A DNA stretch of 64,000 nucleotides from an uncultured Clostridia bacterium (lineage in GTDB: Bacteria; Bacillota; Clostridia; Christensenellales; Borkfalkiaceae). The position numbers and the translations under genes are program-made. Positions 44,901 to 63,243 of this stretch are shown piece after piece (the first letter of the stretch is position 1; each line of letters begins with the position of its first letter). A model generated the notes under the pieces. The model did not search any database. It was not told the origin of the DNA and worked only from the letters and a program-made list of their open reading frames with translations. Location: positions 1 through 64,000 of the forward strand of contig CANOUP010000008.1 in the NCBI GenBank assembly GCA_947570625.1. Direction: 5' to 3'.

Positions 44901-47699
44901 GTTATAGGTGGTGACGGTTTCGCCCGAGTGTTTGATATAGAAGTTGTTGGGGATTACGCCTACCCAGAAAATATTTGCTTCGGGGAACGCTTCGTGATAA
45001 TTTTCGAACAGACTTACAAGCCTATCGTATACAGCCTGCGCGTTCTTATCGTCGCTGTCCTTGTTGACGGGAGCGTCGATATCGTTTACGCCGATATGGA
45101 AGAGTATATTTTCGGGATTGTACGACATCTGCAACGCACCGATTTGCCCGTCGTTATTCCAGTAAGGAACCTGCGTTCCGCCTACGCCCACGTCGGCAAG
45201 CTTTTTACCTGCGGAAGTCAAATCATAAGTGAGAGTGTTCCATACGCCGTAATTCATCCAGAACTCGGTATAGCTGTCGCCTGCGACAAGCACGTCGATA
45301 GCTTCTCTCTTCATTTCGGGGTTGTGGTCGATAAATTCCTGACTCGTCTTGTCGGTATTTGCGAAGTAGTCGGTAACCTGCATACCGTATGCGAACGACT
45401 TGATGCCGAGTATGAACTTATCGGAATGCGCCGCGTATACGCACTGGTGAACGAGCACGTCGTCGCCGTTAGCGTTTTCGTAGTACATGCTGACAACGTT
45501 ATCCGCATAGGTCATTGCAAGGGTGATTGTCTTGGTCGTCGTATCGAATACGTTGCCCGCCTTTATAAGGTTGTTCCAGGTACCCCAGCCGTTGGGCGCG
45601 TAGTTATAGCCTAGCTCTCTTCCGCGGAATACGCCGTCGTTGGCTTCGCCTATCCATGCGTCGACGTAGAAGAACGTACCCGTCTGCAAACCTTCGTCAA
45701 AGAGCATGAAGCCGAATTTGCCCCACTTTTCGCCTGCATAAGCCTGCGTAAGTTTGAACGTCGCTCTCACATAAGCTTCTTTACCCTCGGTTTCCTTGAA
45801 GAAAATGTTGTTGTCCTTGCCGTCGTGACCCGTGAGTTCCACCATTCTTTCGCCGTAGTTTTCGGAGTCCTTGGCATAATCTTTATCGATAACCCAGTTC
45901 GCGCCGTAGTCGTAGTTTTCCGTCGAACCGAGCGTGTTTCCCTCGAAACGGACTTCGGGAAGCTTATCTTCGAATTCGCTTACATTGTTCGTGCAGTAGT
46001 AGTCGGTTACTTCCAGCGTTATCGCAAACGATTTAAAGCCGACGACTACGTCTTTATCCGTTCTGAAACGAACCTGCGTCAGTAACTGTTCTTCTCCGCC
46101 GTCCGTCGAATAGAAGAAATATGCGTAACCTCTTTCTGCTTCGTAAGCGACTGAAAGAGTGATTTCTTTTTTGCTGTCGAATAAGCCCGGCGTACTGCTT
46201 CCTTCAGCCCAGTTATAATCGTCCGTGCCGGGAACAACGCCGAGGTTTGTTCCGGTAATTTCCTTGTTATCGTTGCAGGCCGCGTCTGCATAGTACAGAA
46301 GTCCCGACTTCAATCCGTTTCCGTCGAACATCATAAGTCCGAATTTACCGAACTTTTCGTCGCCGATTACACCCGTCGCCTTGAAGGTAGCCCTTGCGTA
46401 CACGTTCTTGCCCGAGTTACGGAAGAACACGAGGTTGTTGTCTTTGTTGTCGTGGCCGTTTAAAACTACTTTTCTGTTTTCATAGTTTTCGGTATCCTCT
46501 GCGGGATAGTCGTGCGATAAATCCCAACGGTCGCCTGCGGGAATAGCGGCCGTTCCGCCAAGCATACCCGCGCCGTGGAGATAGTAATTTTCTTTCCACT
46601 CGCCTTCGCTGAGTGTGGGATACGAGTTTGCGCTTGTCTTTTCATAGCCGTTGTACGTTGCCGATATACCCAGAGTATTGGTATAGTTGTTGAGTACGGG
46701 AAGCGCGCATATAGCTCCGTCGTCCGCAGTGCCTTCTATGCCCAGTTTTTCATATGATAACGAAAGTTTAACGGCATAACCGTCGAGCTTTGTTCCGTCC
46801 TCGGACCAGGGTGTTGCGCTTAAAACGGTGATTGCGCTTTCGGTTGCGGATACGTATTCGCCGTCAACCGCCCTGAAATGTTCTACCGTTCCGTCAGCCG
46901 AAACCTTTACGCCGAAATGATGCTCGCCGAGGTTTATATAGTCGAAACCGAATTTGCACGCGTACAATTCCACCGCGTCGAGTTCGCCGTTGATTTTAGC
47001 GTCGCTTACGTATACCTGTACGTCGAGCGAAGTTTCGGTATATTCGTATACCCATACCGAAACGGCTTCGTCCCTGATAATCTTGCAAGTAAGTTCAAGT
47101 CCTTCGGGACGGGGCGCCGTCAAAACATTGTCCGCAAGCGCGGAAGTAACCGTGACGTCGGCGGAAGCCGCAGGCATTTTAAAGGTTGCCTTGCCTTCCG
47201 ATAAGGTAAGGTCGGCGCCGTTGAGTTTAAGCGTTACGATTTTATAGCCGTAGCTTGCTTCCGCGGTAAGAGTTACCGTTTCGCCCTCCTTTGCCTTTGT
47301 TTTATCCGCTGTCAGCGTAACGCCCTCGGCGTTTCCGAGATTAACAGCGTATTCGTCTTTTCCGAGGTCTTCGCCTCCTTCATTTTTCTTTGTAAAAGAA
47401 GCCGTAACGTTGACGTTTTCCGCGGGCATAGTAAACGATGCTTTGCCTTCGGATACTTCGGTTTCCGTATCGTTGACTTTAAGCGTTTCAAGCTTATAGC
47501 CTTCGTCGGGAGTTACGGTCAGCGTAACTTCTTCGCCATCGGAGGCTTCGGCTTTGTCGGCCGTTACCGTTCCGTTCAGGCACTCTGCAACCGTGATTGA
47601 GTAAGTCTGCGTCTTTTTACAGGCGGTTGCGCCGGCAAGACAGAGCACGACTAACGCACACAGAAGCGGAAGAAATATCTTCCTGATGGTTTTGCTCAT
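41937..47699 (-). CDS. Giant surface lipoprotein: InlB-like repeats, SGNH esterase, CBM9-like domains
   Basis: 1920 residues. Lipobox LAGATAC near Cys27. InlB-like repeats at ~30-105 and 115-190 (GYKLETLKVNDTE; GYKIVTLKLNGAD). Two related concanavalin-like modules lie at ~385-570 and ~595-780, each with an NxxxGxxxKxG-F pattern. The SGNH/GDSL hydrolase spans ~800-1000 with GDSY (807-810), GVGG (838-841), GVND (870-873) and DGLH (977-980), so it is probably an acetyl or acyl esterase. A third jelly-roll and another InlB pair follow, then three tandem CBM9/DOMON-like domains at ~1430-1920 (DGIILDGIRDEAYG; DAVIDGELESDVWDA; GITLDGEFNDSVW). It would deacetylate and hold a plant-type polysaccharide at the cell surface for the GH43 enzymes. 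Confidence 0.85.
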   Translation of the reverse strand: MSKTIRKIFLPLLCALVVLCLAGATACKKTQTYSITVAECLNGTVTADKAEASDGEEVTLTVTPDEGYKLETLKVNDTETEVSEGKASFTMPAENVNVTASFTKKNEGGEDLGKDEYAVNLGNAEGVTLTADKTKAKEGETVTLTAEASYGYKIVTLKLNGADLTLSEGKATFKMPAASADVTVTSALADNVLTAPRPEGLELTCKIIRDEAVSVWVYEYTETSLDVQVYVSDAKINGELDAVELYACKFGFDYINLGEHHFGVKVSADGTVEHFRAVDGEYVSATESAITVLSATPWSEDGTKLDGYAVKLSLSYEKLGIEGTADDGAICALPVLNNYTNTLGISATYNGYEKTSANSYPTLSEGEWKENYYLHGAGMLGGTAAIPAGDRWDLSHDYPAEDTENYENRKVVLNGHDNKDNNLVFFRNSGKNVYARATFKATGVIGDEKFGKFGLMMFDGNGLKSGLLYYADAACNDNKEITGTNLGVVPGTDDYNWAEGSSTPGLFDSKKEITLSVAYEAERGYAYFFYSTDGGEEQLLTQVRFRTDKDVVVGFKSFAITLEVTDYYCTNNVSEFEDKLPEVRFEGNTLGSTENYDYGANWVIDKDYAKDSENYGERMVELTGHDGKDNNIFFKETEGKEAYVRATFKLTQAYAGEKWGKFGFMLFDEGLQTGTFFYVDAWIGEANDGVFRGRELGYNYAPNGWGTWNNLIKAGNVFDTTTKTITLAMTYADNVVSMYYENANGDDVLVHQCVYAAHSDKFILGIKSFAYGMQVTDYFANTDKTSQEFIDHNPEMKREAIDVLVAGDSYTEFWMNYGVWNTLTYDLTSAGKKLADVGVGGTQVPYWNNDGQIGALQMSYNPENILFHIGVNDIDAPVNKDSDDKNAQAVYDRLVSLFENYHEAFPEANIFWVGVIPNNFYIKHSGETVTTYNEAYKLLNAKVKELAETLDYLNYIDQWTSFANEEGEVRANLMMNDGLHLNPIYGYPLWTANIKKALYPDVTADWDNEEYVLGASGSRVPTPAWVYGKDGNLARLDYRYGDTGVKVNVEENIYYKAEPSADILFEAEIRSNGLHNADAWSKVGVSLVNDDVTIFAYCETNADNTLNGIKLNYVSLVARGNHRNNWNNGEWGLGVGDWNWNNQAGAQIAERDITKDFVKIGIAKKGATIYLLADGAVVASTDKFPEVKEGSKFTAGITSFSRNVEIKSVNYTANADEIEMGLAAAHSISVPDYSADGITVNLNKTTAKKTEEISFTITNNGDSVIDKVYAVYGGADNELTAEEGTYTFVMPDEAVTLKITFVGKKTITLGEGAIDKINVSKLSVNPGTEVTFTAKENVSIGKIYYTVGDGEPVEIVPADGVYKLEVNEDVTITAVTYFTIDGIILDGIRDEAYGAASTEAKLNDNRNMQVWAKKTEQGVFIYAMSHSNEYKDNGGDWWDNSNFEFYLNNGGQLCVNSKGYKQVVTEYFTKYTKLADEANAYNGKWENIYEIFVAKESIANFDNGDIQLNYAFKTGNGIDKAGYESDFIVQGAVTRNYDWWSYHAVGGCGSDAGWFNGFNYNSAKPANLFIGTDGIKKVKATAKDAVIDGELESDVWDAKAGLNNLGSADKAQFEVKAFAGTDGLYIGMKIVHGNWSSANPSGDWSTHDNVEIHINCIGNAIVFINGKLCAPALFDQTAAKTVEEDGKLVTVVELFASGVAEQYRLQMGCNGDGFGGWQELFWGGNIGYATADGLTLTNKLGEIASNAGITLDGEFNDSVWTEEVTEKTYTAFANGAEISVMGVNTSAGVLIGFTVKHNKPVNEHCQGDGTQWWNYMGPEIRLANLWGKQICATTWNNYTQLCMQGNKTVENGEGVDYRYTTTYEMLIDYGEIGCVSDRPIKIACAGVFENGFTTLFGGAWGDNFVNASHVITANGMIYVR

Positions 47700-48930: not shown

Positions 48931-48966
48931 AAACAAAATGCCCCTGCGCAGTCTTTGCGCAGGGGC
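48931..48966 (-). terminator. Intrinsic terminator of the TIR/ESCRT-like operon
   Basis: Perfect 11-bp stem GCCCCTGCGCA/TGCGCAGGGGC with a 5-base loop, just after the protease stop, followed on the minus strand by TTTTGTTTC. Confidence 0.85.
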
Positions 48967-48981
48967 TGTTTATTAATTAAT

Positions 48982-49761
48982 TTATATAAGTCTGCCTATA
49001 TTTACACCGCATTTCTTTATAAATTCCCAAACGGTGCGCGAAGGAATCGCGTATTTCATACCCACAGCAAGCGCGCCGTTGTTTAACTGCGACGAAACGT
49101 GAACGCCGATTACGTATCCCTGTGCGTTGAACAGGGGTCCGCCCGAATTACCGCCGTTGGTGGCGCAATCGTGCATTACATAGACCTTTCCGCCGTTACT
49201 TCTCGCCCTGTCGCTTACGATACCGCTTGTAATGCACGTGCCGTAGCCGAGCGAATTGCCTATGACGTAGACGTTTTCCCCGTTTCTTACTTTTTCGGAA
49301 TCGGCAAAAGTTAACGCCTTGGCGTCGGCGGGCATCCTTCTCAGCTTTATTAGCGCAAGGTCGACGCCGTTGCCCGCTCCGTGCCTGTCGTCGCCTAAAC
49401 GTATGACGTCGGCTTTTATATTCTCATCGCATACCTTGACGGTTACGCTTCCGCACGAACGTCCGTCGGCGAAGCTTACGACGTGGGTATTTGTAATTGC
49501 ATAGCCGTCGGAGGTAATTATAAGCCCCGAACCCGAATATTCGGAATTGCCATGCGTCCAGCTGATTTCGAGCACACCGCCGACGTTGTTGTCGAACACG
49601 TCCGCACCGCTTACGCTCACGCTTTCCTTTTGTTCCGATATGCTCTTTTTGGGCTTAGCCGAAAAATCGCTTGCCGAAAACATCGCACGGCAACAGGTAC
49701 ACCTGAAATTTCCGCCCCCGATATCGGTGAGCGAACCTCCGCATACTTTGCATCTATTCAT
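48982..49761 (-). CDS. Zinc ribbon-trypsin-like serine protease
   Basis: 259 residues with no signal peptide or membrane span, unusual for an S1C (HtrA/DegP-like) protease. N-terminal zinc ribbon Cys4/Cys7/Cys21/Cys24 (CKVCGG...CTCCRAMF), similar to those of the two TIR proteins upstream. The protease domain at ~60-245 has the full triad: His93 (ITNTHVV), Asp134 (NGVDLALIKL) and Ser206 (TNGGNSGGPLF). No PDZ domain follows. It is the last gene of the operon, 12 bases after the second TIR gene. I infer an intracellular effector or processing protease that joins the same complex through its zinc ribbon. Confidence 0.88.
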   Translation of the reverse strand: MNRCKVCGGSLTDIGGGNFRCTCCRAMFSASDFSAKPKKSISEQKESVSVSGADVFDNNVGGVLEISWTHGNSEYSGSGLIITSDGYAITNTHVVSFADGRSCGSVTVKVCDENIKADVIRLGDDRHGAGNGVDLALIKLRRMPADAKALTFADSEKVRNGENVYVIGNSLGYGTCITSGIVSDRARSNGGKVYVMHDCATNGGNSGGPLFNAQGYVIGVHVSSQLNNGALAVGMKYAIPSRTVWEFIKKCGVNIGRLI

Positions 49762-49773
49762 TGTCCTTCCTCC

Positions 49774-51765
49774 TTATATCTTCTGTCCTTTACAGCTCCA
49801 AATTACATTATGCTGTTTGTTGCCTAAGCCGATGTTGCGCTTGCACCATTTTATGTGCCAACCGTTCGGCGCATTGTCCGCCTCGCAATAAACGGTAATG
49901 TCCTGTTCGCTTAAAAAAGCGCCCTTGCCGATTATTTTTACGCTCTTGGGAATTATCACTGATTTTAAGCGGTTCAGTCCCGTAAAAGCGTGCGCTTCTA
50001 TTTCGCTTACGCCGTCGCCTATAATAAGCTCGTTTAAAACAGGACTTTCGATTATACAGCTTCCTATTCTTTTTACGCTTCCCGGGATTGTAAGGCTAAG
50101 CGCAAACTTCTGTATGCCGAAAGCGTTATTTGCTATCGAAACAACACAGTCGGGAATAACGATGTCCCTGGAATTGCCGAGATATTTTACGAGCTCGCCA
50201 TTGACTATTTTAAAGTCGGCAAGCCATTTTTGCTTTGCTTCCAGCTTTTCACGCTGTGCACGCTCGGCGGCCGCCTTCTCCCTGCGGGCTTTTTCGGCTT
50301 CCACCATTTTAATATTGCGTTCCCTTTCGTCACGCTTGCGGTTTTCTTCCGCCTCGCGCCTTGCTCTCTCCTGTTCTTCCTTTCTGTATATCTTTTCTAT
50401 CGAATAAAGCACGTTAACCAGTCTGAATTTCGCAGAAGCCCCTTCATGCTTTAATACAAAATTTTCTATTCTGCTTTTAAGCTGTTCGCCTGCGTAATAT
50501 CTTGCCTTTTTAAAATTAACGTCGTCGAAGTCTATCGCGGAGAACAGCGGTATTTTATCTTCGTCGGAAACTTTCATACCCGTAAGAAAAAGTCCCCAGT
50601 AGGCTTCCGCGTTATAATTGTCCGCCGCGGTAACCGTCGTAAAATACGTCTTTGCATTGGCAAAATCGCCCGAGCTTAAAAATTGGTTTGCGAGCACCAG
50701 AAACATATTCGCCGAAGAGTTGCCCGCAGTCGCGCTTGGCTGAACGGGCGCGCTCTGCATATTGCGAAGACGCTCTTCCAGCTCTTGAAGCTTTCTTTCG
50801 CTTTCAGCTTCACGGCGTTCTTTAATAAGTTTTTCCTCTTCCCTTCTCTTCCTCGCTTCGGGCGTATGCGTTTCGACGAAGGATACAATTCTTTCAAACG
50901 CGTTAAGCTGGTTTAAGTTTATCGCCTGTATCCTTCCGCGCTTGCCGGGAAGTTTTTCTATGGGAAGCCCGCTGAATACAAGCGTTATACTGTCGCTTTC
51001 CTTTTCATCGTCGCCTATAAGCTTTAAAAAGCGGGTGTATTCGTTTTTGACCCACGGAGTCTGTAAGTACTCTTCATTTCCGCAGACGACAAGCATACAC
51101 TCGGCGGAATACAGCGCGTACAGAATGCGCGCTTCATAGTCCGCGCCCGTGACGTTACGAAGTTCTCTTTCCGAAAAGAAAGGACGGTAACCTTTCCCCT
51201 TCAATTCGAAATATATGTCGTCGGCGTCCTTGTAATCGGACGTTCTCATTTTCGTGTTGTCGTCCGTAACCTTGACGCAGATGAAACAGTCGTATTTAAC
51301 GCCCGCTTTTTTAAGTTCGAAAAACGTCTTGCGTATATAGTCTATATCGTCGCCCATACGCTCGTACTGGACGCGCTGGGCGGGGGAAGCAAGTTCTAAG
51401 GCGCGGAGATAGTTTTTATTCTGCGTAAATTCTTTATCTGTAATTTCGTGGCATATGGGTTGCAGACAATTGTTGACCGCGTCCTTTATGTACTGTACTT
51501 TAAACTCCGCAAGCGCGGTTTTAAAGTACGCCTCGGGCTCGTTCAGGTCAAGCTCGGCGGCTGTTTTAAAAGCGGTATACGCGCCGTCGAAATTGCCCGC
51601 GTCCAAATCGTGCTCGCCCATATAAAGAAAGTTTAACGACGCAGGCGAAGTAACGGGTTTGGGAACCGTAAAGACGCTTCGGCAGAAACCGCACTTTATC
51701 ACGCCGTTCTCCGCTTGGCTCAAATCGAGCGAAGCGCCGCAATTTTTACAAATAAACTCTTGCAC
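49774..51765 (-). CDS. Zinc ribbon-TPR-TIR-coiled coil-LRR protein
   Basis: 663 residues, soluble. Zinc ribbon Cys6/Cys9/Cys25/Cys28; TPR-like helices ~45-95 (FLYMGEHDLDAGNFDGAYTAFKTAAELDLNEPEAYFK); TIR domain ~157-300 (YDCFICVKVTD; DADDIYFELKGKGYRPFFSERELRNVTGADYEARILYAL; TPWVKNEYTRFL). Glu242 in WVKNE sits where the catalytic Glu of NADase TIRs is found. Then a charged coiled coil (~305-345), one aromatic repeat unit (EAYWGLFLTGM), a second very charged coiled coil (~455-520) and a BspA-type LRR (~525-640). The first ~330 residues are closely similar to the 1064-residue protein that heads the operon. A likely NAD-consuming or signalling effector; inference. Confidence 0.87.
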   Translation of the reverse strand: MQEFICKNCGASLDLSQAENGVIKCGFCRSVFTVPKPVTSPASLNFLYMGEHDLDAGNFDGAYTAFKTAAELDLNEPEAYFKTALAEFKVQYIKDAVNNCLQPICHEITDKEFTQNKNYLRALELASPAQRVQYERMGDDIDYIRKTFFELKKAGVKYDCFICVKVTDDNTKMRTSDYKDADDIYFELKGKGYRPFFSERELRNVTGADYEARILYALYSAECMLVVCGNEEYLQTPWVKNEYTRFLKLIGDDEKESDSITLVFSGLPIEKLPGKRGRIQAINLNQLNAFERIVSFVETHTPEARKRREEEKLIKERREAESERKLQELEERLRNMQSAPVQPSATAGNSSANMFLVLANQFLSSGDFANAKTYFTTVTAADNYNAEAYWGLFLTGMKVSDEDKIPLFSAIDFDDVNFKKARYYAGEQLKSRIENFVLKHEGASAKFRLVNVLYSIEKIYRKEEQERARREAEENRKRDERERNIKMVEAEKARREKAAAERAQREKLEAKQKWLADFKIVNGELVKYLGNSRDIVIPDCVVSIANNAFGIQKFALSLTIPGSVKRIGSCIIESPVLNELIIGDGVSEIEAHAFTGLNRLKSVIIPKSVKIIGKGAFLSEQDITVYCEADNAPNGWHIKWCKRNIGLGNKQHNVIWSCKGQKI

Positions 51766-51775
51766 CTTATCACCC

Positions 51776-53857
51776 TTATTCGTTGGAATTTTTCCAGTCG
51801 AGAAGTTTTTCTATGTCCTCGCGCTGTACAGACGAAGTAATCTGTTCGAGGGCTTCTTCGAAATCTGCCTGTCTTATGCACTTTTCGCCCGTGGAAATAC
51901 CGCGGAGCGCGGATATTTCTTCCACCCTGTCGAGAAGGTTTGTCATATCCGAACCGTTGAAGCCGTTCGTCTTTTCGACAATTAAAGGCAAATCTATATC
52001 TTCGCCGACGGCGACGATATTCTTTTCGCCTATCTTTTTAAGCCTGCGCGACAGCATATATTCCCTTGCGGGCTCGTCGGGGAGCCCCACGTATATGCGC
52101 GTGCCGAACCTGCCGGGTCTTATGAACGCGCTGTCTATATCCCACGGCTTGTTCGTCGCCGCGATAAGGAAAAGTATGTTGCCCTTGGATTTGCCGTATT
52201 CCTCTATGCCTTGAAGCTGTGCAAGGAACTCCGAACGGAGCTGACGCGCATACTGCGACTTTGTAGACTTTGGCGAAATGGAATCCATTTCGTCGAAGTA
52301 GATAACGGCGCAGGGGAACGAACGCGCCTGTGCGAACAGCGAGCGCACCGCTTTTTCGGTGTTGCCCGCGCCCTGGTTCAATAAATCAGAAGGCTTAACC
52401 GAACAGAATTTTGCGCCTATTTCGTTTGCGATAGCGGCGGCAATCATCGTCTTGCCCGTTCCGGGAGGACCGTACAAAAGCACTCCTCCTCCGCCCTTTC
52501 TGACATAGCCTTCAAACACTTCGGGGTGCTGTAAGGGCAGTAAAACCTTTACCTTGACAACCTCTTTGACGCTGTCAAGCCCCGCTATATCGTCGAAATT
52601 GATGACTGGAAGGCTGTCCCAGTCGAATTTGAAATCCGAGTTGACCCCGCCGTCTTCAAGAATTTTTTCCTCGGGAGCGGGGGCGTCATCTTTTTCGGGA
52701 GAGATTACGGGCGTTTTTCCGTTCTTCTCGGGAGAGGCAATAACGGGGTTACCGCTTACGGGGGGATGCGAAACAAAGGGCAGATCCTCCGCCGTTATCT
52801 CCGTCATTTCCGCGTCCGAAGGGTTGTAAAGCCGTGCAACGCGCTTTGACTGGCGGGTAACGATAGACTCGAACGTGTTTCTCACGTCCCTGCCGTTGCC
52901 GAAATTTTTATCGCGGTTTTTGTAGAGGTTATCGAAATAGCTTTTAAGCGCCGAACGCGCCTCCGCCGTAACCGTGTACTGGTTTTTGTTACACAGCCCC
53001 GTAAATATGTTGAAGAGCTCTTCGCCCGTATAGTCTGTGAACTGTATGAAGTTTTTGAACCTGGAACGCAGTCCGGGGTTTGACGAAATGAATTTTTCCA
53101 TTAAATCGTCGTAGCCGGCGACTATTACGACAAGGTTGTCGCGCTTGTCCTCCATTTCCTTTAAAATGGTATCAATCGCTTCCTGACCGAAATCGTTGGC
53201 TCCGCCGTTGGCAAGCGAATACGCTTCGTCGATAAACAGCACTCCGCCGTAAGCTTTTTTAAGCACGTCGCGCGTTTTAACAGCCGTCTGTCCCACGTAG
53301 CCCGCGACGAGGTCGCCCCTGTCGACTTCGACGAGGTGCCCTTCGCTGAGCACGCCGAGCGCGCAGTAAATTTGCGCCATAAGGCGGGCGACGGTCGTTT
53401 TACCCGTGCCGGGGTTGCCCGTAAACACGATGTGGTAGGACATATCGGGCACGGACATACCGCGCTCTTTGCGCATCTGGAAAACCTTTATCTGGTCAAC
53501 CCAGTCGCAAACCTGCCCTTTTACGCGCGATAAACCTTCGAGGTTGTTAAGGCGCCTTAACGCCTCTTCGAGAGTAATTTTATCGTTGCGCTGAACGTTT
53601 ACATCGCTTTCTGCCGAAGCCTCGGAAGTTTTGGGTTTGGGCTGGGTTATGCTTTCGGCAAATTCGAGAATGCTTTTCGCCCTGGCAAAGCGGGCTTTCT
53701 GCAATTCGCCCTCGCTTGCTTTCGCCATTTTCAGCATCTGCTCGGCGGCAAGCATATAGTACCTCTTTGCAAGGTGCTTTTCCCCGCGGGAAAAACTTTC
53801 CTTTGCTTTATTGTAATAGAGGTTGAATGTTTCGTTAAGTAAGTTGAGATTATCCAT
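51776..53857 (-). CDS. MIT-like/CbbX-type AAA/Vps4-type AAA tandem ATPase
   Basis: 693 residues. Residues ~5-70 are a three-helix MIT-like bundle (YYNKAKESFSRGEKHLAKRYYMLAAEQMLK...ARAKSILEFAES). First AAA at ~95-360 is of the CbbX/SpoVK/EccA type: LSRVKGQV, Walker A GNPGTGKT 147-154, Walker B GVLFIDEAY. Second AAA at ~415-650 resembles the Vps4/katanin/spastin group: Walker A GPPGTGKT 463-470, Walker B VIYFDEMDS, RPGRF with Arg580/Arg583, then DFEEALEQITSSVQREDIEKLLDW, like the Vps4 C-terminal helix. The Vps4 beta-domain insertion is not evident. It follows two ESCRT-III-like genes by 10 bases and is the obvious candidate to disassemble their filaments. Confidence 0.85.
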   Translation of the reverse strand: MDNLNLLNETFNLYYNKAKESFSRGEKHLAKRYYMLAAEQMLKMAKASEGELQKARFARAKSILEFAESITQPKPKTSEASAESDVNVQRNDKITLEEALRRLNNLEGLSRVKGQVCDWVDQIKVFQMRKERGMSVPDMSYHIVFTGNPGTGKTTVARLMAQIYCALGVLSEGHLVEVDRGDLVAGYVGQTAVKTRDVLKKAYGGVLFIDEAYSLANGGANDFGQEAIDTILKEMEDKRDNLVVIVAGYDDLMEKFISSNPGLRSRFKNFIQFTDYTGEELFNIFTGLCNKNQYTVTAEARSALKSYFDNLYKNRDKNFGNGRDVRNTFESIVTRQSKRVARLYNPSDAEMTEITAEDLPFVSHPPVSGNPVIASPEKNGKTPVISPEKDDAPAPEEKILEDGGVNSDFKFDWDSLPVINFDDIAGLDSVKEVVKVKVLLPLQHPEVFEGYVRKGGGGVLLYGPPGTGKTMIAAAIANEIGAKFCSVKPSDLLNQGAGNTEKAVRSLFAQARSFPCAVIYFDEMDSISPKSTKSQYARQLRSEFLAQLQGIEEYGKSKGNILFLIAATNKPWDIDSAFIRPGRFGTRIYVGLPDEPAREYMLSRRLKKIGEKNIVAVGEDIDLPLIVEKTNGFNGSDMTNLLDRVEEISALRGISTGEKCIRQADFEEALEQITSSVQREDIEKLLDWKNSNE

Positions 53858-53867
53858 AAAATCCCGC

Positions 53868-54431
53868 TTATATCATTTTTTTCTTTAATTCTTCAAGCTC
53901 TTTTTCAATCATAGATTCGGTCATATTGTCCGCGCTCGCCTCGTTGTTCATAAGCGCTTCAAGCTCGCTGTTTTCGTCCGCGCTTCCCGAATAAGCCGAA
54001 GAGAAAGTGGATTCCGTTTCGTCCATAAAGTTTTCCATATGCTCGGTCTGCAATTCGACGTTTGTCATCGCCTCGTTGAACTGCTTTTCGACTTTAAGGA
54101 AATCCTTCTCCTTGGTAAGCTTCATCATATCTTTGGAAAGCGTGCCCATTCCCTGCAAGAATTCGACCGTCATTTTGGACATATCTTTCATCTGTGAGGT
54201 TATTTCGAAATTGAGCTTCATTTCGTAGACGCGCTTCTGCTGTGCGATTGTCATTCTCAGTCCCGAAAGGGCAAGGTTGTACTGGGCGGTAAGCCCCTTC
54301 TGTTTTGCCTGCTTGCCTGCGTCTATGTATACTTTTTTCTGTTCTTCGAGTTTTTGTATCTGCTTATTCATAGAGGTTATCGTCTGTTTGATAAGCATTT
54401 TCTTTTTGATTTCTTTTTTTGAAACGCTCAC
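53868..54431 (-). CDS. ESCRT-III (CHMP/Vps2)-like coiled-coil protein
   Basis: 187 residues. Basic N-terminal helices (KKEIKKKMLIKQTITSMNKQIQKLEEQKKVYIDAGKQAKQKGLTAQYNLALSGLRMTIAQQKRVYEMKLNFE) are followed by FLQGMGTLSKDMMKLTKEKDFLKVEKQFNEAMTNVELQTEHMENFMDE and an acidic, disordered tail. The layout (basic core, GMG..M helix, acidic tail) is that of CHMP2/Vps2. The tail ends in ESMIEKELEELK (172-183), a near match to the MIM1 motif [DE]xxLxxRLxxL[KR] that MIT domains bind, and the next gene encodes a MIT-like domain. Similarity is by eye. A PspA-like origin remains possible. Confidence 0.7.
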   Translation of the reverse strand: MSVSKKEIKKKMLIKQTITSMNKQIQKLEEQKKVYIDAGKQAKQKGLTAQYNLALSGLRMTIAQQKRVYEMKLNFEITSQMKDMSKMTVEFLQGMGTLSKDMMKLTKEKDFLKVEKQFNEAMTNVELQTEHMENFMDETESTFSSAYSGSADENSELEALMNNEASADNMTESMIEKELEELKKKMI

Positions 54432-54445
54432 GGTTCATATTCTCC

Positions 54446-55033
54446 TTAGTCTGTTTCTTTTTTGCTTTCGGGTGCTTCGGCGTAGAGTTCCTGTTCGGCT
54501 TCGACCATATCTTCGGTTTCGAACATAGCCAAAAGCGCGTCGTCCTGCGAATTCATACCGTAGATAGCGCCGTTCTTCTCGTACGCTTCTTCGACGTTTT
54601 TGAAAGTTTCGTCCGCCGAAGTAAGCACGTCCTCCGACCTTATGCGCGTGTTAAGCGTCTTGTTGAGAAATTTGGCAAGCCCCTTCTGGTCGGAAAGCAG
54701 GTTCCCCAAAGATACCTTCGACGTGTTCTTGAAAAATTGGTTATCGTCGATTGCGCTTTTAAGTTTGTTCAAAAGCTGGACGTTGTACATAAGGTACATC
54801 GCCCGCTGTGAATCCTGCTCGCGCTCGGCTTTTAAAAAGTTTATCTTTTTGGCGTAAAGAAGCTTGGTTTCCTTGTTGGTTTCCTTTCTTCCCTTTACCA
54901 TTAAATCGTCTATCTTTTTCTGTTTCTCGACAAGCCCGTCCTCTATCCTCTGCGATTCCTGTTCGAGTTTGCAGATTGAATCCACAACCTCTTCGCGGGT
55001 AAGCTTGTCGTATTTGCTCTTAAAAAACCACAT
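54446..55033 (-). CDS. ESCRT-III (Snf7)-like coiled-coil protein
   Basis: 195 residues from the ATG at 55033, chosen because GGAG lies 7 bases upstream; the longer reading starts with TTG. It begins MWFFKSKYDK, a short hydrophobic/basic end like the membrane-inserting N-terminus of Snf7. It continues VDSICKLEQESQRIEDGLVEKQKKIDDLMVKGRKETNKETKLLYAKKINFLKAEREQDSQRAMYLMYNVQLLNKL, which follows the Snf7 alpha1-alpha2 hairpin pattern. The C-terminus is acidic (ETEDMVEAEQELYAEAPESKKE). With its neighbour it could form the two-component filament typical of ESCRT-III. By-eye assignment. Confidence 0.68.
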   Translation of the reverse strand: MWFFKSKYDKLTREEVVDSICKLEQESQRIEDGLVEKQKKIDDLMVKGRKETNKETKLLYAKKINFLKAEREQDSQRAMYLMYNVQLLNKLKSAIDDNQFFKNTSKVSLGNLLSDQKGLAKFLNKTLNTRIRSEDVLTSADETFKNVEEAYEKNGAIYGMNSQDDALLAMFETEDMVEAEQELYAEAPESKKETD

Positions 55034-55108
55034 TTGCGTACTCCTATTCAAATTAAACGACGCGGGAAAGATTTACCTTTTAAACGGCAAACTCCCCGCG
55101 GCGCACGC

Positions 55109-55537
55109 TTAAAGCTTGGCGTTGCGGTCTGCCACGGCAAGCTTTATATCCATAATAGCTTCTTTTGTTTTCTTGTTTGCCTCACCGTCCGATTTGGTGA
55201 GCGCGATTCTCAAATCGCCTAATTTGTTCTTGATAGCCTTGTCGAAGTCTATTACCTTGGGCAGGGAAGAAGGCTTTAAATATTTAAGCTCGTTCTGCAA
55301 ATCGCGAAGTTCGCCTATAAGCTCTTCGTTACCCTGCGAAAGCACGATAAGCGCATCGATGGATTTTGCGTTTTCGGCGATAAGCTCTCTGTCGTTTAAC
55401 GTTTTTTGCGCGGGGGTATTGTTTTTAAGTCTTTTCAGTTTAAAAATAACGATGAGAAGTATTAAAAGAAAGAATACGATTACCCCTGCTACAACGATGA
55501 TAAGAATAGTTGAAGGGTCAAGTGCAAGTAAATTCAT
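55109..55537 (-). CDS. Single-span membrane protein with cytoplasmic helical domain
   Basis: 142 residues. One strong span at ~10-34 (TILIIVVAGVIVFFLLILLIVIF) followed by KLKRLK, so the N-terminus faces out. The cytoplasmic region is helical (ELIAENAKSIDALIVLSQGNEELIGELRDLQNELKYLKP) with a C-terminal helix KNKLGDLRIALTKSDGEANKKTKEAIMDIKLAVADR. It lies between the SPFH and ESCRT-III-like genes (19-base gap upstream). By analogy with the small membrane partners of PspA/SPFH modules it may recruit the filament proteins to the membrane. Family not recognised. Confidence 0.72.
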   Translation of the reverse strand: MNLLALDPSTILIIVVAGVIVFFLLILLIVIFKLKRLKNNTPAQKTLNDRELIAENAKSIDALIVLSQGNEELIGELRDLQNELKYLKPSSLPKVIDFDKAIKNKLGDLRIALTKSDGEANKKTKEAIMDIKLAVADRNAKL

Positions 55538-55556
55538 TTTTTATTTCAATCTCCTT

Positions 55557-56597
55557 TTAGCTGAGTTTTTTACCGCAATTCGAACAGAACACGGCAGTGT
55601 GCGGGTTGGCTTTCCCGCAGTCGGGACAAATTACAGGTTCTTTGGTTAACCTCTTTCCGCATACGGGACAGAATTTGTCGCCGGGCTTGTATGCGGTATT
55701 GCAGTTGGGGCAAAGCGTTTCTTCCCCTGCGTTCTTTTTAAGCTTTCCGCCGTTTTCGCCCACGACTTTCAAAACTTCGTAGTAAGCGGCTTTGTCTTGA
55801 AGCTCTAACTGGCGCAGATATTTTTCGCGCTCCCACTGCTTGTCGTCAAGCCTTTCCACTTCGGCAAGATATTCTTTGAGTTTTTCCTGCTTCTGTTTTT
55901 CGGCGGCCGCGTCCTCGATGGCGTCCATATCCTCGTCTTCGAGGTGGAAATCGGCAATCCTGAATTCTTCGACGGTAAGTCCCCACTTCTTTTCGAATTC
56001 GTTATGGCTTAAAATTTCGCCCATTCTGTTGCCTATTGCTTTTTTGTTGGCGGTGAACTGGTCGTAGGTCAGATTCTTTTCCTTAATCGTCGCAAGGAAG
56101 ATATCGGCGAACTCGCCCGCAATGGTTTCCACGAACCTTTCGCAGAACTCGTCGACGTTGAACTCCTTCTTGTTGCCGACTACTCTTCTGTAAAACAGTT
56201 CGGGGTTATGCACGTTGACTACGCACTCTCCGCGCGCGCCGACGGTAATTACCTTATTGCTGGCGTCGTCGCGGTATCTAACCCTGTTGGGCGTGCCCCA
56301 TTGGATACGTACGCCTGCCTCGAGGGGAATATACACAACCTCGACGGAAAGTCCGTTCTTCCAGTTTTTAATCTCTTTCTTGTCGTCGAAAACATTGTAA
56401 TTTCCGCTGTCGTAGTACCTTATGTCCCCTCCGCCCTTAATGAGTATGGCGTTGTGGTGGGGAGGCACTTCGAGAATTGCTTCCTTGTCGGTAACAAGGT
56501 TTTCGACTCTTAAAAAGAGTATCGCGTTGTCATCGAGGTTTGCTTTGCACAAATCCTGGTTGAGCTTGATTACCTGCCTTTGTTTTTTGAACAACAT
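55557..56597 (-). CDS. SPFH/band-7 protein with C-terminal zinc ribbons (YdjI-like)
   Basis: 346 residues. The SPFH core at ~20-235 includes FLRVENLVTDKEAILEVPPHHNAILIKGGGDIRYYDSGNYNVFDDKKEIKNWK, VEVVYIPLEAGVRIQWGTP, GARGECVVNVHNPELFYRRVVGNKKEF and FRIADFHLEDEDMDAIEDAA. A charged helix follows (EKQKQEKLKEYLAEVERLDDKQWEREKYLRQLELQDKAAYYEV). The end carries two zinc ribbons (CPNCNTAYKPGDKFCPVCGKRL and CPDCGKANPHTAVFCSNCGKKL). This is the layout of B. subtilis YdjI, which works with PspA at the membrane. It probably scaffolds this operon's ESCRT-III-like proteins. Confidence 0.85.
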   Translation of the reverse strand: MLFKKQRQVIKLNQDLCKANLDDNAILFLRVENLVTDKEAILEVPPHHNAILIKGGGDIRYYDSGNYNVFDDKKEIKNWKNGLSVEVVYIPLEAGVRIQWGTPNRVRYRDDASNKVITVGARGECVVNVHNPELFYRRVVGNKKEFNVDEFCERFVETIAGEFADIFLATIKEKNLTYDQFTANKKAIGNRMGEILSHNEFEKKWGLTVEEFRIADFHLEDEDMDAIEDAAAEKQKQEKLKEYLAEVERLDDKQWEREKYLRQLELQDKAAYYEVLKVVGENGGKLKKNAGEETLCPNCNTAYKPGDKFCPVCGKRLTKEPVICPDCGKANPHTAVFCSNCGKKLS

Positions 56598-56628
56598 TTT
56601 ATTTTACTCCTGTATATTTTTTATGTTT

Positions 56629-59600
56629 TTAAATACGGTACATATAATATCCCGTTAATTTGCTTATAAATTTCCTAGCGTTTGACGTCGATAAGTCAGA
56701 CGGGGAAATCTCCTCAACCGTACCGCCGGACCCGTCGGGCTTATAAGCGTAGTACCAACCTATTTTATTTTCAAACTCTATAACCGTATCTTCTGAACCG
56801 TAAAGGCTATTTCCGCAGAATTGAAAAGCGTTTAGCCCTATTCTCGTAACGTTTGCGGGAATATTTATTTTTTTAAGGTAACGGCAGCCGTTAAACGCAA
56901 CGTCGCCTATGCTTGTAAGATTTTTCGGCAGATATATTCTCTCTATTTCATTGCGTTCGTAAAATAATTTCTCTCCTATCGCTGTCACGGGTTTGCCGTT
57001 GAACGTATTGGGAACGGTCACGTATTTTTCGTTTTTGTCTTTAAGGTATAAACTTTTAACTATATAACTGTCCGTTTCCTCTTCTTCTGCCATAGTAAAA
57101 ACGTAAGTGCTTGTTTCGAACAAGTTGGACTGGCTGTTTTCGGTTGAAGTTTTTACCACGTATCCCGCAAGCACCGAAAAAGCAAATATAACCGCAACGA
57201 AAACCGACAGCGCAATCGAAGCGATATTCCCTTTCTTGGTTTTCGTCTTATTCGATACGATACATATTACTATCAGGAAAAAAGCGGGAATTGCGATTAT
57301 AAGCGCGCGCCACTCGTGCGCACCTATAAAGCTCATAGCGGGTCTTACCCAGAACATATCTACGCCAGGCACCCTGAAAAACGAAAGTATACCGCTCAGC
57401 GCCATTGCAATGCACAGAATTATCAGTATAACCGTAAACGCATTTTTCGTCCTGAAAATGCGTTTGCCCGTACGCGCTATGCAGTTCTCTTCCACAGCTT
57501 TTTCCTGCGCTTTCGAGAAACAGACATAGTTATTATAAAGCCCCTTAGCGCAGGACTTTTCCGCCGTCGCTACCGCTTCCGCGTAATTCTTGCTGTTTTT
57601 AATACTCTTGTAAAGACCTGTAAGGTCGGCGTCGCTTTTACAGCCGAACTCCGCCTTCATTTTATCCCAGGCGGATTTAGCGTCCTCGTAATACTTGACG
57701 TGTTCGGCAAGCCCTTCTTCGAATTTTGCTATTCTCTTTTTTTCTTCGTCGTCGGAGTACTTTTTCGCCCTGCGGTAACAGGGGTTTTCATCGGGAATAT
57801 TTCTGTATTCATACTTGAAGTCGGTCAAAAGTTCGTCCTCGGACTTGACTTCCAGCCCTTCGAGAAATCGGTTCCACCAAAGCTTGAACGAAAACACTTC
57901 GCCAATAAACGAATTTATTACCGTTGCAAAGTCGCCCGAGGCATAGCTGTACGCCAGCTTGTAATAGGGGTTTTCGGTAATATCGAAAAGCTGTTTGTTG
58001 TCGGCGCGCATTATAAGCTCGGGTCCGCTCTTTGCGCCGTAATCGCCGAGAAAGCGTTTCCACCATACTTCGCCCGAATACATCGCCGCGCGGAATTTTT
58101 CAACACGCTCTTTCAGGTCGCCCTCGGCTTTCCTTAAAACCGTGTTGTAGTTGACGCTTTTCTCTATCTGTTCGCGCAAATCTTCGGTAATAGCGTCTAA
58201 AAGCTCGTTTTCGTGGTTTACCGAAAATTCCTGCAAGAACAGCTTCCAGTACGACCGCGGCGAATTGATTTCGTTTTTGAAGTTTTCGAGCACGGGCTTG
58301 AATTCTTCGTCCGCGTATTCCGTTGCGTTTTTATAGTTGACGTTCTGCCTTATCGACGATTTGACTTCCTTACTTATGTTGTCGACTATGTAATCGGAAT
58401 CGGAAGTATTGAAGTCGGCAAGGAAAAGCTTCCACCATTTTCTGGGGTCGCGCAGTCCCGCATTGAATTCTTCTATGCGCTTTTGCGTTTCTTCCGTCGC
58501 GTATTTTTCCGCGCTTTTATAATTTCGGCTGTCGTAAATTCTGTTTACCAGCTCGTTATCGAGGCGGTCGTAAATTTCCTTCTCGTCAGTCACGTCGAAC
58601 TCGACGAGGAAAAGCCCCCACCAACCGTCCGCGTTCTGCGGGTCGGCGTCAAGCACTTTGTTAAAATAGTCCTTGGCTTTGTCGAAATCTTTAAAGCTTA
58701 GCTCCTGCCTGGCTCTTATAAGAAGGGAATTGACCGTTGCGGTCGCGCCCCCGCCTTGCACCGGCGCGGAGTTAAGGCTGTTCAGACGTTTTTCCAGCTC
58801 GCGCTGAGCCCTCTTCTGCTCCTCTATCTGCGCTTCTATCTGTCTTTTGAGCGCGTCGGCTTCTTCCTGTTTTTTGCGCTTTTCTTCCTCGCGGCGCTTG
58901 CGCGCGGCGGGGGTATGCTTTTCCACAAATTCGGCTATGGCGGTAAAAGCTTCGCGGTTTGCAAGGTCTATGCCCTGTATCCTGCCGTTTTTGCCGGGAA
59001 GCCTTTCGATAGGCTTGCCGTTAAAAGCTATGGTTATACTGTCGCTTTCCTTCTCTTCGTCGCCGATAAGCTTTAAAAAGCGGGTGTATTCGTTTTTAAC
59101 CCACGGGGTCTGCAAATAGCTTTCGTCGTTGCACACGACAAGCATACACTCCGCGGTGTACAATGCGTACAGTATGCGCGCCTCGTAGTCCGCGCCCGTG
59201 ACGTTTCTTAGTTCCCTTTCCGAAAAGAAGGGTTTGAACCCCTTTCTCCTTAAATGGAAATAAATGTCGTCGGCGTCCTTATAGTCGGACGTGCGCTGTC
59301 TTGTAACGTCGTCGGTGACTTTGACGCAGATGAAGCTGTCGTATTCCAGCCCCGATTTTTTTATCTTGAAAAACTCTTCGCGTATGTAATCTATTTCCTG
59401 ACCGTTGCGCTCGTATTCGAAACGCTGGTCGTCCGTGGCAAGCGAAAGCGCCTTTTTGTAGTTGACGCTGTCGGTAAACTTTTTATCGGAAATTTCGTGA
59501 CATATGGGTTGAAGGCGGTTGTTGGGAACGTCCTTCAAAAACTGGACCTTAAACTCGGAAAGCGCCATACCGAAGTACGCTTCGGGCTCCTTACCGTCCA

Positions 59601-59823
59601 GTTGGGAAGCTTTTTTGTACGAAGTAAAAGCTCTGTCGAAAGAACAGGAATCCAGCTCGTTTTCGGCAATTCTCAAAGAACTAAGCGCCGCGGGATTGGT
59701 TTCCTTTTTCGCCACGGTAAACACGCTCCGGCAACTTGGACACTTCAAAACGCCGTTTACAGCTTTGCTTGCGTCAAGCTGGTCGCCACAGTTTTTACAC
59801 AGTGTTTTCTGTAAACTTTCCAT
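56629..59823 (-). CDS. Zinc ribbon-TPR-TIR-repeat-transmembrane-LRR protein
   Basis: 1064 residues. Zinc ribbon Cys9/Cys12/Cys28/Cys31; TPR-like helices ~45-100; TIR domain ~160-300 (YDSFICVKVTDD; FKPFFSERELRNVTGADYEARILYALYTAECMLVVC) with Glu245 in WVKNE at the expected NADase position. A charged coiled coil (~305-350) leads into tandem 62-residue repeats whose aromatic pairs fall at 401, 463, 525, 587 and 649 (WWKLFLADF-type). Then come about three spans (~795-817, 840-857, 866-890) and a BspA-type LRR (~930-1005). It heads the operon. It could be a membrane-tethered TIR receptor sensing through the LRR or repeat region; inference. Confidence 0.87.
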   Translation of the reverse strand: MESLQKTLCKNCGDQLDASKAVNGVLKCPSCRSVFTVAKKETNPAALSSLRIAENELDSCSFDRAFTSYKKASQLDGKEPEAYFGMALSEFKVQFLKDVPNNRLQPICHEISDKKFTDSVNYKKALSLATDDQRFEYERNGQEIDYIREEFFKIKKSGLEYDSFICVKVTDDVTRQRTSDYKDADDIYFHLRRKGFKPFFSERELRNVTGADYEARILYALYTAECMLVVCNDESYLQTPWVKNEYTRFLKLIGDEEKESDSITIAFNGKPIERLPGKNGRIQGIDLANREAFTAIAEFVEKHTPAARKRREEEKRKKQEEADALKRQIEAQIEEQKRAQRELEKRLNSLNSAPVQGGGATATVNSLLIRARQELSFKDFDKAKDYFNKVLDADPQNADGWWGLFLVEFDVTDEKEIYDRLDNELVNRIYDSRNYKSAEKYATEETQKRIEEFNAGLRDPRKWWKLFLADFNTSDSDYIVDNISKEVKSSIRQNVNYKNATEYADEEFKPVLENFKNEINSPRSYWKLFLQEFSVNHENELLDAITEDLREQIEKSVNYNTVLRKAEGDLKERVEKFRAAMYSGEVWWKRFLGDYGAKSGPELIMRADNKQLFDITENPYYKLAYSYASGDFATVINSFIGEVFSFKLWWNRFLEGLEVKSEDELLTDFKYEYRNIPDENPCYRRAKKYSDDEEKKRIAKFEEGLAEHVKYYEDAKSAWDKMKAEFGCKSDADLTGLYKSIKNSKNYAEAVATAEKSCAKGLYNNYVCFSKAQEKAVEENCIARTGKRIFRTKNAFTVILIILCIAMALSGILSFFRVPGVDMFWVRPAMSFIGAHEWRALIIAIPAFFLIVICIVSNKTKTKKGNIASIALSVFVAVIFAFSVLAGYVVKTSTENSQSNLFETSTYVFTMAEEEETDSYIVKSLYLKDKNEKYVTVPNTFNGKPVTAIGEKLFYERNEIERIYLPKNLTSIGDVAFNGCRYLKKINIPANVTRIGLNAFQFCGNSLYGSEDTVIEFENKIGWYYAYKPDGSGGTVEEISPSDLSTSNARKFISKLTGYYMYRI

Positions 59824-59851
59824 ACTTTTTTCCTTAAACTATACTAAGTTA

Positions 59852-59881
59852 ATTATATCATACACGTTATTAATTATGCAA
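59852..59881 (-). promoter_or_regulatory. Promoter of the TIR/ESCRT-like operon
   Basis: Minus-strand TTGCAT (59876-59881), 18-base spacer and TATAAT (59852-59857) with an extended TGA before it. AAGGA precedes the ATG at 59823. No further promoter or terminator was seen until 48931, so the eight genes probably form one transcript. Confidence 0.65.
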
Positions 59882-61455: not shown

Positions 61456-63243
61456 TTATTCGTTGTCGTCCGTACAGTGAACTTTATATTCGCCTGAGCG
61501 CAAATCCCAGTTCTCGAATTTATTTATTGCATTCCACTGTTCTCTCGTCCCTTGAAAATATATGTCGGTCAGGCTTGCGCAATCCCAGCAAGCCCCGGAA
61601 CGTATATGCTTGACGGTTGCGGGTATCGTAACCGTTTTCAAACTTTCGCAATTATCGAACATACGCTCGCCTATTTCGGTTATACCTTCGCCGAAAACTA
61701 CGTTTGTAAGCTTTTCGCAGGCCGCAAACACGTCCTGTCCGAATTGCTTTACGCTACCTGAAACGGTTGCGCTTACAAGGTTTTTACAACCGAAAAAAGC
61801 CTTTTCCCCGATTGCCGTAACGCCGTCGGAAACGGTTACGGACGTAATTATTTCGTTATAGGCGAAAGCCGATTTGTTTATTTCGTATGTTTTGCCGTTA
61901 TAGTCCGCAGGTAAAGTTATTTCCGCATCGTCACCTCTGTACTCGACGAGGTACGCTTTGTCCCTAGCCGTATAGAAAGTAAAGCCGTCGCTTCTTCTGT
62001 CTATACCGCTGGGGAAATTCTCTATATAAATGATGTTCAGCGCGTATCTGCCTATACTGCCGTTCGCGCTCGATTCGCCTATATCGATGCGCAGATTTGA
62101 AAAATTATAAATTTCCCACAGGTTTTCGCAACCCGTAAACGCATATTCTCCTATCTCGGCTATGTTTTCCGTTATGACTATGCTGTTCAGATTATCGCAT
62201 CTGTAAAACGCCCATTCGCCTATCGCGGTTATGCCGTCGTGCATTTTAACGCTAGACAGGTTAGCGCACTCATAGAACATTTTATCGGTTATTTTCGTCA
62301 TCGTTGCGGGTATGGTTACCGCACGTTTAGCTTTTGGAACGCACAGACATTCCGTAACTTCCTTGTTGTACAGCACACCGTCGACGCTTGCGAACGTAGG
62401 ATTGTTTTCGTCAACCTCTATCCTTTCCAACGCGGATAAGTATCTTAAATTCTCGCCGTTTCTGTAAATTTTCGTCACGCTTGCGGGAATTTTCAGGCTT
62501 ACGGGATTGATGGACACGAACGGCAGGTAGATTTCCGTTACAGGCAATCCGTTAAACTGAGAAGCGATTTCAACGTCGGTAAACTCTTCCGCGTCCATAA
62601 GCCCGCGGTAGGCATAGTTGGACGCTACATAATAACTGACCCCGTCATCGCGAATCGTATATTCGAACCCGTCTTCGCTTACGATAACTTTACATTTACT
62701 GCTTTCGCCGTCAGCCGAAACGGTAACCTCGGCGGCCCCCTGCGAAAGAGCCGTCAGCTTTCCGTTTTCGACTTTGACTACTCCCTCGGGTTCTACCGAC
62801 CACGTTAAGGCAGAAGTCGCATTTTCGGGATACACCCGTGCGTCGAGCGTCTTTTCGCCGTTTGCGAAAAGTATAACCTCGTGCTCCGATAAGCCAATCA
62901 TTTCTACGGGGATTTTTTTGGTTACGGTAACCGTACACTTTGCGCTTACCGAACCGACCGACGCCGTTACAACGGCAACGCCTTCCGAAAATGCGGTTAC
63001 CGTACCTTCGCGCACGTTTATGACACGGTTGTCGTCAACCGCCCATATAACGGTTTTGTCTGCCGCGTCGTCGGGGAGAACGGTTGCCGTTAATTGCGCC
63101 GTTTCGCCCTCGTCGAGCGCAAGCTCTGTTTTGTCGAGAGTAATGCTTTCCGCCTCGACCTTGCCTTTACAGCCCGCAAGACCAAGGACGCAGAATACAG
63201 CGCACACAACCGTTAACAGAGTAATAGTAAATTTCTTATTCAT
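61456..63243 (-). CDS. Lipoprotein with two Big2 Ig-like domains and BspA-type LRRs
   Basis: 595 residues. Lipobox VLGLAGC (Cys25). Two bacterial Ig-like (Big2) domains at ~32-108 (ITLDKTELALDEGETAQLTATVLPDDAADKTVIWAVDD) and ~112-190 (IGLSEHEVILFANGEKTLDARVYPENATSALTWSVEPEG). Then irregular BspA/LRR_5 repeats (NLSSVKMHDGITAIGEWAFYRCDNLNSIVITENIAEIGEYAFTGCENL; VSDGVTAIGEKAFFGCKNL; GEGITEIGERMFDNCESLKTVTIP). Probably a surface adhesin or binding protein. A good GGAGGTG ribosome site precedes the ATG. The LRR type matches the C-terminal LRRs of the TIR proteins, but terminators separate the units. Confidence 0.88.
   Translation of the reverse strand: MNKKFTITLLTVVCAVFCVLGLAGCKGKVEAESITLDKTELALDEGETAQLTATVLPDDAADKTVIWAVDDNRVINVREGTVTAFSEGVAVVTASVGSVSAKCTVTVTKKIPVEMIGLSEHEVILFANGEKTLDARVYPENATSALTWSVEPEGVVKVENGKLTALSQGAAEVTVSADGESSKCKVIVSEDGFEYTIRDDGVSYYVASNYAYRGLMDAEEFTDVEIASQFNGLPVTEIYLPFVSINPVSLKIPASVTKIYRNGENLRYLSALERIEVDENNPTFASVDGVLYNKEVTECLCVPKAKRAVTIPATMTKITDKMFYECANLSSVKMHDGITAIGEWAFYRCDNLNSIVITENIAEIGEYAFTGCENLWEIYNFSNLRIDIGESSANGSIGRYALNIIYIENFPSGIDRRSDGFTFYTARDKAYLVEYRGDDAEITLPADYNGKTYEINKSAFAYNEIITSVTVSDGVTAIGEKAFFGCKNLVSATVSGSVKQFGQDVFAACEKLTNVVFGEGITEIGERMFDNCESLKTVTIPATVKHIRSGACWDCASLTDIYFQGTREQWNAINKFENWDLRSGEYKVHCTDDNE

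Follow-up and report, generated by a model that had tools for sequence, protein, structure and literature searches.

What might a bacterium do with an operon in which an ESCRT-III-like gene and a Vps4-like ATPase gene stand among genes for TIR proteins and a protease? The question is raised by eight genes, A to H, in a 64,000-nucleotide stretch of DNA from an uncultured Clostridia bacterium (Christensenellales, Borkfalkiaceae; contig CANOUP010000008.1), called the window here at its full length. In eukaryotes and archaea, ESCRT-III proteins and their motor Vps4 bend membranes and sever them. We propose that the operon joins a predicted ESCRT-III/Vps4 pair (the products of E and F) to a likely SPFH platform, and that the whole would be an alarm for membrane damage or phage entry that switches on zinc-ribbon-tagged effectors. 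We put the probability of this reading slightly above even, at about 0.52.

From 48982 to 59823 the eight genes follow one another head to tail on the minus strand, to which the operon features given below also belong, and the list of open reading frames contains every one of them at the coordinates we use. An earlier note, made from the letters of this DNA, had described eight minus-strand genes, most with gaps of 10-31 bases; the frames are as it said, and the gaps from A to H (31, 19, 75, 14, 10, 10 and 12 bases) depart from that range at one point, the 75. Pfam likewise agrees with most of its domain calls, with TIR_2 and LRR_5 over their cut-offs in A and G, Band_7_1 and zinc ribbons in B (SPFH), AAA in two stretches of F, and Trypsin_2 in H; the zinc ribbons it named in A and G are plain in the sequence while falling under the Pfam cut-off. 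For the window copies of C, D and E, the Pfam scan found no family over cut-off.

The case begins with gene E (53868..54431; 187 aa, ESCRT-III/Snf7-like). Judged by its profile matches, the E family is a member of the Snf7/ESCRT-III superfamily. The E copy of locus L085 scores 34.0 bits against Snf7 (PF03357, cut-off 27.3 bits), and its 41% identity to the window's E links the window copy, itself under the Snf7 cut-off in the Pfam scan, to a Snf7-matching relative. When the whole genomes of 13 chosen carriers were scanned, Snf7 matches came from four genomes and every one was an E-family protein (33.3 and 28.0 bits among them); in Sulfolobus acidocaldarius, included as a control, the match was detected but stayed under the cut-off. 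Snf7 is also the family matched most often at an E-value of 0.1 by the 64 members of our broad E profile, A6 (17 of 64, the next family reaching 6), 20 of these proteins having been scanned singly against Pfam and the others entering through tallies. Against 177,635 PDB sequences, the best match of A6 was CHMP2A, colinear and with an E-value of 0.07; the window's E sequence alone gave a CHMP match at 0.72, and the narrower profile A1 gave none.

The predicted structure of E (mean predicted local distance difference test, pLDDT, of 64) has helices at residues 5-45, 48-105, 110-146, 151-165 and 171-186, that is, a hairpin core followed by short helices, and so shows the long helical hairpin that the earlier note had proposed to look for. 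A Foldseek search with this model placed CHMP1B/IST1, CdvB, CHMP2A/CHMP3 and Vipp1 at ranks 1-10 (E-values 0.03-0.36, low TM-scores), and in a structural second look other helical domains tied with Snf7. The description of E as Snf7/CHMP-like thus holds through relatives over the Snf7 cut-off, with weaker support from the fold. A basic N-terminal half and an acidic C-terminal tail are a hallmark of ESCRT-III proteins, and the mean net charge of the 64 E proteins is +8.4 over residues 1-70 and -7.1 after residue 145. The C-terminal helix of the window's E (53883..53918) resembles the MIT-binding motif MIM1. A relaxed MIM1-like pattern is found in 24 of the 64 proteins (shuffle mean 0.4, the proteins being related and not independent), and 1 of 64 has the classic motif's basic residue. 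We also considered E as a PspA/Vipp1 protein and set this aside, PspA_IM30 (PF04012) being absent from the 25 families shown for E members. In whole genomes, PspA_IM30 passes its cut-off in none of 19 carriers (two weak matches fall below it), and the window's own genome has 0 matches.

The presumed partner of E is encoded next to it by gene F (51776..53857; 693 aa). By sequence, F is Vps4-like, a motor that carries a further AAA domain, and the Vps4-type C-terminal helix is seen in its relatives. Its second AAA (51788..52612, residues 416-690) is of the Vps4/Cdc48-like, classic type (PF00004, 1.3e-54) and ends in a Vps4_C-like helix; NCBIfam gives 191.3 for CDC48 and 179.9 for CdvC, both under cut-off. 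The Vps4_C search (PF09336) that the earlier note had suggested passes the cut-off in three of five relatives scanned (L030, L031 and L028), falls under it in L033 and lists no value for L034, and the window's copy, at 19.8 bits, lies just under the cut-off of 21.3. That note had called F an MIT-like/AAA/Vps4-like AAA protein; the classic second AAA and Vps4_C in the relatives bear out the last of these parts, and one correction applies: the first AAA (52781..53557, residues 101-359) is CbbX/SpoVK-type with AAA_lid_6, and the second alone is Vps4/Cdc48-like. The Walker A motif is kept in both AAA domains of the window's F, as read from the sequence, and many relatives, in proteins from about 370 aa, have the second domain only.

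The N-terminus of F (53642..53857, residues 1-72) is a helical domain whose identity as MIT is likely, on family-level evidence that lies under the Pfam cut-off. Among 55 F N-termini (profile A8 holds 55 of 57 sequences, L069:17101 and L034:3802 having been left out), MIT (PF04212) matches 4, the best at 2e-6, and TPR_2 and DUF1771 match 5 each, more weakly. In a comparison with the PDB, the MIT chains of VPS4A/VPS4B were matched over the whole domain (E-values 0.06-1.3) and a CdvC MIT domain over half of it (0.02; PDB 2w2u, so identified in PMC5840170), while the top scores went to multi-repeat TPR designs through repeated short matches. Some results weigh against an MIT identity: the N-terminus of the window's F, taken alone, had no MIT match, and a whole-genome scan of 20 carriers found MIT over its cut-off in 0, the sole match being F of genome G138 with 21.9 bits against a cut-off of 30. 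Because of this last scan we have slightly lowered our confidence in the proposed reading of the operon and in the broader claim about bacteria.

Gene D (54446..55033; 195 aa from its ATG start, with a longer TTG form that starts at 55051) is well conserved and is predicted to fold as a helical hairpin (pLDDT 64). The earlier note had seen two Snf7/CHMP-like proteins in this operon; the claim stands for E and finds no sequence support for D. The D and E profiles align with a probability of 3.4 in hhalign, and Snf7 is absent from the 21 Pfam families matched by 33 D members at an E-value of 0.1. With the model of D, Foldseek gave weak matches to CdvB2 and ESCRT-IIIB (first row archaeal CdvB2, E-value 0.22), and in a structural second look the ESCRT-III matches ranked below other helical domains. 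D may be an ESCRT-III paralogue of E, but the comparisons gave no profile link to E, no Snf7 match and weak matches of the fold.

How widely is this arrangement kept? Within the family, the window's E found 14 carriers among 151 genomes, the window's genome included, and within the order, profile A1 found 43 among 396 (22 of 142 genera); five of these 43 matches are weak (E-values 1.3e-5 to 3e-4), and G365 and G469, two of the five weakest, were left out of the reading of loci. In a 398-genome sample of the phylum, A6 matched, apart from the genome of the window itself, one false positive, discarded as an E protein because its sequence is of what we take to be the GrpE type. Copies of E were sought in phage and plasmid records and none were found.

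The order of SPFH gene (B), membrane protein (C), D, E and MIT-like/AAA gene (F) recurs in related genomes, in many of 58 loci and beyond what chance would give, which answers the doubt about gene order that the earlier note had raised against itself. When genes on the strand of E are counted, 43 of these loci have B, 32 have C and 35 have D. The N-terminal part of F is present in 47, a CbbX-type AAA in 21 and an AAA like the second one of F in 50; 34 have a TIR gene and 20 have H. These figures are lower bounds because some loci end at contig ends. E adjoins or is fused to an AAA gene in 40 of the 58, and a TIR gene stands between the two in five more (L019, L023 and L029-L031). The nine profiles behind these counts (B, C, D, E, MIT, CbbX, VPS, TIR and H) were built from 18 of the 58 loci, which match by construction, and those named MIT and VPS are two parts of F and not Pfam families. 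L024, apparently the same 11,450-base contig as L019, was left out of the 58, and three genomes (G181, G295 and G484) contribute more than one locus. Short frames that overlap others were dropped from the gene maps by length; three lists of protein matches hold the best 120 of 525, of 560 and of 893, and two models were made from 53 and 52 rows. In a look for an empty site within the genus, the GH43 gene that lies on the operon's other side was beside none of 20 MATE homologues, several of them on short contigs.

The genes around this core suggest what it may be for. A (56629..59823; 1064 aa) encodes an N-terminal zinc ribbon, TPR, TIR (residues 180-291), transmembrane segments seen by eye and LRR_5; G (49774..51765; 663 aa) encodes a zinc ribbon, TPR, TIR (residues 177-291) and LRR_5; and H (48982..49761; 259 aa) combines an N-terminal zinc ribbon with an HtrA/trypsin-like protease domain. 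TIR_2 scores 37 bits in each of A and G (cut-off 28), and both have the motif YEARILYAL, whose glutamate (codons 59182-59184 in A and 51133-51135 in G, as read from the sequence) we take to be the catalytic residue expected of TIR NADases. Of 35 TIR proteins, 24 have this glutamate by pattern and 3 more by eye; the other eight, which lack the pattern, belong to six loci of one family and to L085 and L104. The TIR region of G had no match among PDB sequences at an E-value of 1. In L075-L080, a protein of 115-119 aa encoded between C and D matches part of the TIR-effector profile. We consider the TIR proteins and the protease likely to be immune effectors.

At the N-terminus, 33 of the 35 TIR proteins and 17 of the 20 proteases have a CxxC-CxxC zinc ribbon; sought in 71 E proteins, 34 D proteins and the N-terminal 60 residues of 53 AAA proteins, it was found in none. 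A, G and H share it at their N-termini, and we read it as a putative common docking module of the TIR proteins and the protease. The SPFH proteins have a zinc ribbon too, within the last 90 residues in 32 of 42; the window's B (55557..56597; 346 aa) is an SPFH/band-7 protein with two such ribbons at its C-terminus, likely a membrane platform. C (55109..55537; 142 aa) has one N-terminal transmembrane helix, seen by eye, and a helical tail, and is a conserved partner in these loci.

The relatives of this operon vary in ways that resemble conflict systems. BrxL lies in or beside the operon in at least eight loci (L026, L028, L032, L069, L072, L073, L082 and L085), as judged from 8 proteins chosen by eye, which match the best BrxL model at E-values from 1.5e-189 to 2.7e-205. 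PglZ passed its Pfam cut-off in 0 of 17 genomes (those of all eight BrxL loci included, some genomes being 83-85% complete), with weak matches in 3 of 17; for this reason we do not regard these loci as parts of bacteriophage exclusion (BREX) loci, and they look like BrxL outside BREX. E can also be joined directly to a motor, to a Vps4-like AAA in L033 and, in 6 of 9 genomes scanned, to an FtsK domain over its model's cut-off within one open frame (L090:4359-6278, L092:12506-14419, L093:9719-11254, L095:10769-12670, L099:876-2798 and L034:3975-6434). The best PDB match of the fusion in L090 is the DNA translocase FtsK (1.6e-77). Two further frames, L091:4966-6633 and L101:1301-4186, join E to another AAA motor that appears RuvB-like by eye, and three loci (L090, L092 and L095) each contain three E-type proteins, as in composite ESCRT-III polymers.

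A tree of E, built with a quick method, shows 20 or more changes of genome family, between a minimum of 8 for nine families and a shuffled mean of 32.2. The tree suggests both descent and exchange between families, to which old duplication and loss could add. The E proteins of L102-L104 stand on a branch of length 4.81, and their kinship is drawn from weak E-values and neighbourhood. Patchy spread and mixing between families together suggest conflict machinery.

In light of these findings, how might the operon work? It would probably sense membrane damage such as phage entry. B and C would hold E at the inner membrane, on the model of Bacillus subtilis, where YdjI and YdjG/H do this for PspA. 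On perturbation of the membrane, E would polymerise at this platform together with D. The C-terminal helix of E may then recruit F through the MIT-like domain, and F would remodel or reset the E filament. Filament or platform could gather A, G and H by their zinc ribbons; once clustered, the TIR domains would become active, probably as NADases, and protease H might cut a partner. The infected cell would then stop growing or die before phages are released. In the variant loci, BrxL or FtsK-type motors may fill the place of effector or engine.

Several features of the locus can be read in other ways. The SPFH protein with an ESCRT-III-type partner recalls YdjI and PspA, and one may suppose a non-immune system for envelope stress and membrane repair that replaces PspA and uses the TIR, LRR and zinc-ribbon proteins as scaffolds and not as killers. 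Such a system would explain why PspA is over cut-off in none of the 20 genomes tested, why several loci have the core with no TIR gene detected, and why TIR-like proteins in six loci of one family are outside the glutamate pattern. Carriage in 43 of 396 genomes would be odd for housekeeping repair, however, the E genes mix between families, and the variable effectors, BrxL and motor fusions resemble the turnover of conflict systems; we hold this explanation to be unlikely, while giving it real weight.

A second departure denies the ESCRT kinship itself and makes E and D generic coiled-coil adaptors for an unfoldase with two AAA domains, which would feed an HtrA-like protease, comparable to IetAS. 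F does match IetA (123.5 bits) and spore_V_K/CbbX, the structural second look does leave Snf7 tied with other helical domains, D has no Snf7 signal, and MIT stays under its cut-off. Against this, Snf7 passes a curated cut-off and, in the 13-genome scan, picks out E-family proteins only, Vps4_C is over cut-off in three relatives, and a protease is detected in 20 of the 58 loci where E is in all 58, which together make the adaptor proposal improbable. The fusions point in yet another direction, towards a membrane-anchored device of DNA conflict in which E filaments hold nucleic-acid motors (FtsK-type or BrxL) where DNA enters, Vps4-type being one engine among several. The E-bearing frames with FtsK over cut-off (in 6 of 9 genomes), the FtsK match at 1.6e-77 and BrxL in at least 8 loci would fit, but neither FtsK nor BrxL is among the window's eight genes, and an F-type N-terminus is present in 47 of 58 loci and its AAA in 50 of 58 (by the profiles built here); we consider this very improbable. 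We continue to prefer an ESCRT-III/Vps4 pair coupled to immune effectors.

How does this proposal compare with known systems? A Snf7/Vps4-like pair with TIR effectors was sought in the open-access literature, and no description of one was found. IetAS is similar in having a classic AAA ATPase (F against the PADLOC model of IetA, 123.5 bits) together with a serine protease. The IetS protease is of the subtilisin type, whereas the one here is of the trypsin/HtrA type and stands with an ESCRT-III-like gene and with SPFH and TIR genes. The TIR domain, with a conserved glutamate in most copies here, is common to Thoeris and other defences based on TIR NADases; the TIR proteins of this operon differ in having zinc ribbon, TPR and LRR parts. 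PADLOC, run on the eight proteins, gave only partial AAA and protease matches, and no Thoeris model was matched.

Other precedents concern the membrane machinery. In B. subtilis, YdjI and YdjG/H localise PspA, an ESCRT-III homologue (PMC8581546); the likeness is that an SPFH protein and membrane proteins localise an ESCRT-III homologue, and the difference is that the homologue is PspA instead of a Snf7-type protein, with no Vps4-type ATPase, TIR protein or protease named in the abstract. In archaeal ESCRT systems the ESCRT-III gene is mostly upstream of Vps4 (PMC10936438, 2024), and the 'Meth_adaptin' loci described there are among the closest known likenesses; these loci are archaeal, and where effectors of the TIR, LRR or trypsin-like kinds stand in ours, the passages on them name adaptin-like genes and ProX. 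Closer to home, some bacteria have PspA and Snf7-clade proteins beside AAA+ ATPases, one of them a two-AAA protein whose N-terminal AAA copy is described as inactive, and Vps4 has been transferred to bacteria with snf7 displaced (PMC11237479, mSystems 2024). ESCRT-III relatives near bacterial AAA+ genes are thus already on record. Compared with these phage shock protein (PSP) neighbourhoods, the present operon has Walker A in both AAA domains, a Snf7-type E beside the AAA gene, and TIR effectors added.

Some further features belong to the operon's surroundings. A candidate promoter (59852..59881) reads TTGCAT, 18 bases and TATAAT, with TG one base before the latter. The -10 element is perfect (59852-59857), but the -35 hexamer matches at 3 of 6 positions and a promoter scan of the window does not list the site, so that the earlier note's promoter is weaker than it had stated. 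The terminator it had placed after H is there as a terminator-like hairpin of 11 pairs (48940..48966), listed by the scan on both strands. By eye, the product of a large gene on one flank (61456-63243) resembles Big-domain and LRR repeats, and another large gene (41937-47699) encodes a lipoprotein-like surface protein of 1920 aa. Neither the Rfam scan nor the tRNA scan of the window gave a match.

What would follow for bacteria more broadly is that they have a true ESCRT immune system, with a filament seated on SPFH and driven by a Vps4 motor, TIR and protease effectors docked by zinc ribbons, and exchangeable motors (Vps4, FtsK) and partners (BrxL); we advance this broader claim tentatively, as a shade less probable than even. 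What can be seen is a gene of the Snf7 type side by side with one for a Vps4-like AAA protein within one bacterial order, and the locus would offer a small ESCRT with exchangeable motors. If our reading is true, a single prokaryotic device would unite the membrane machine of ESCRT with TIR-driven cell death. If the system works as proposed, ESCRT remodelling would be joined to TIR-type immunity in bacteria, a junction that could be tested in a laboratory host and that would link two hallmarks of eukaryotic cell biology.

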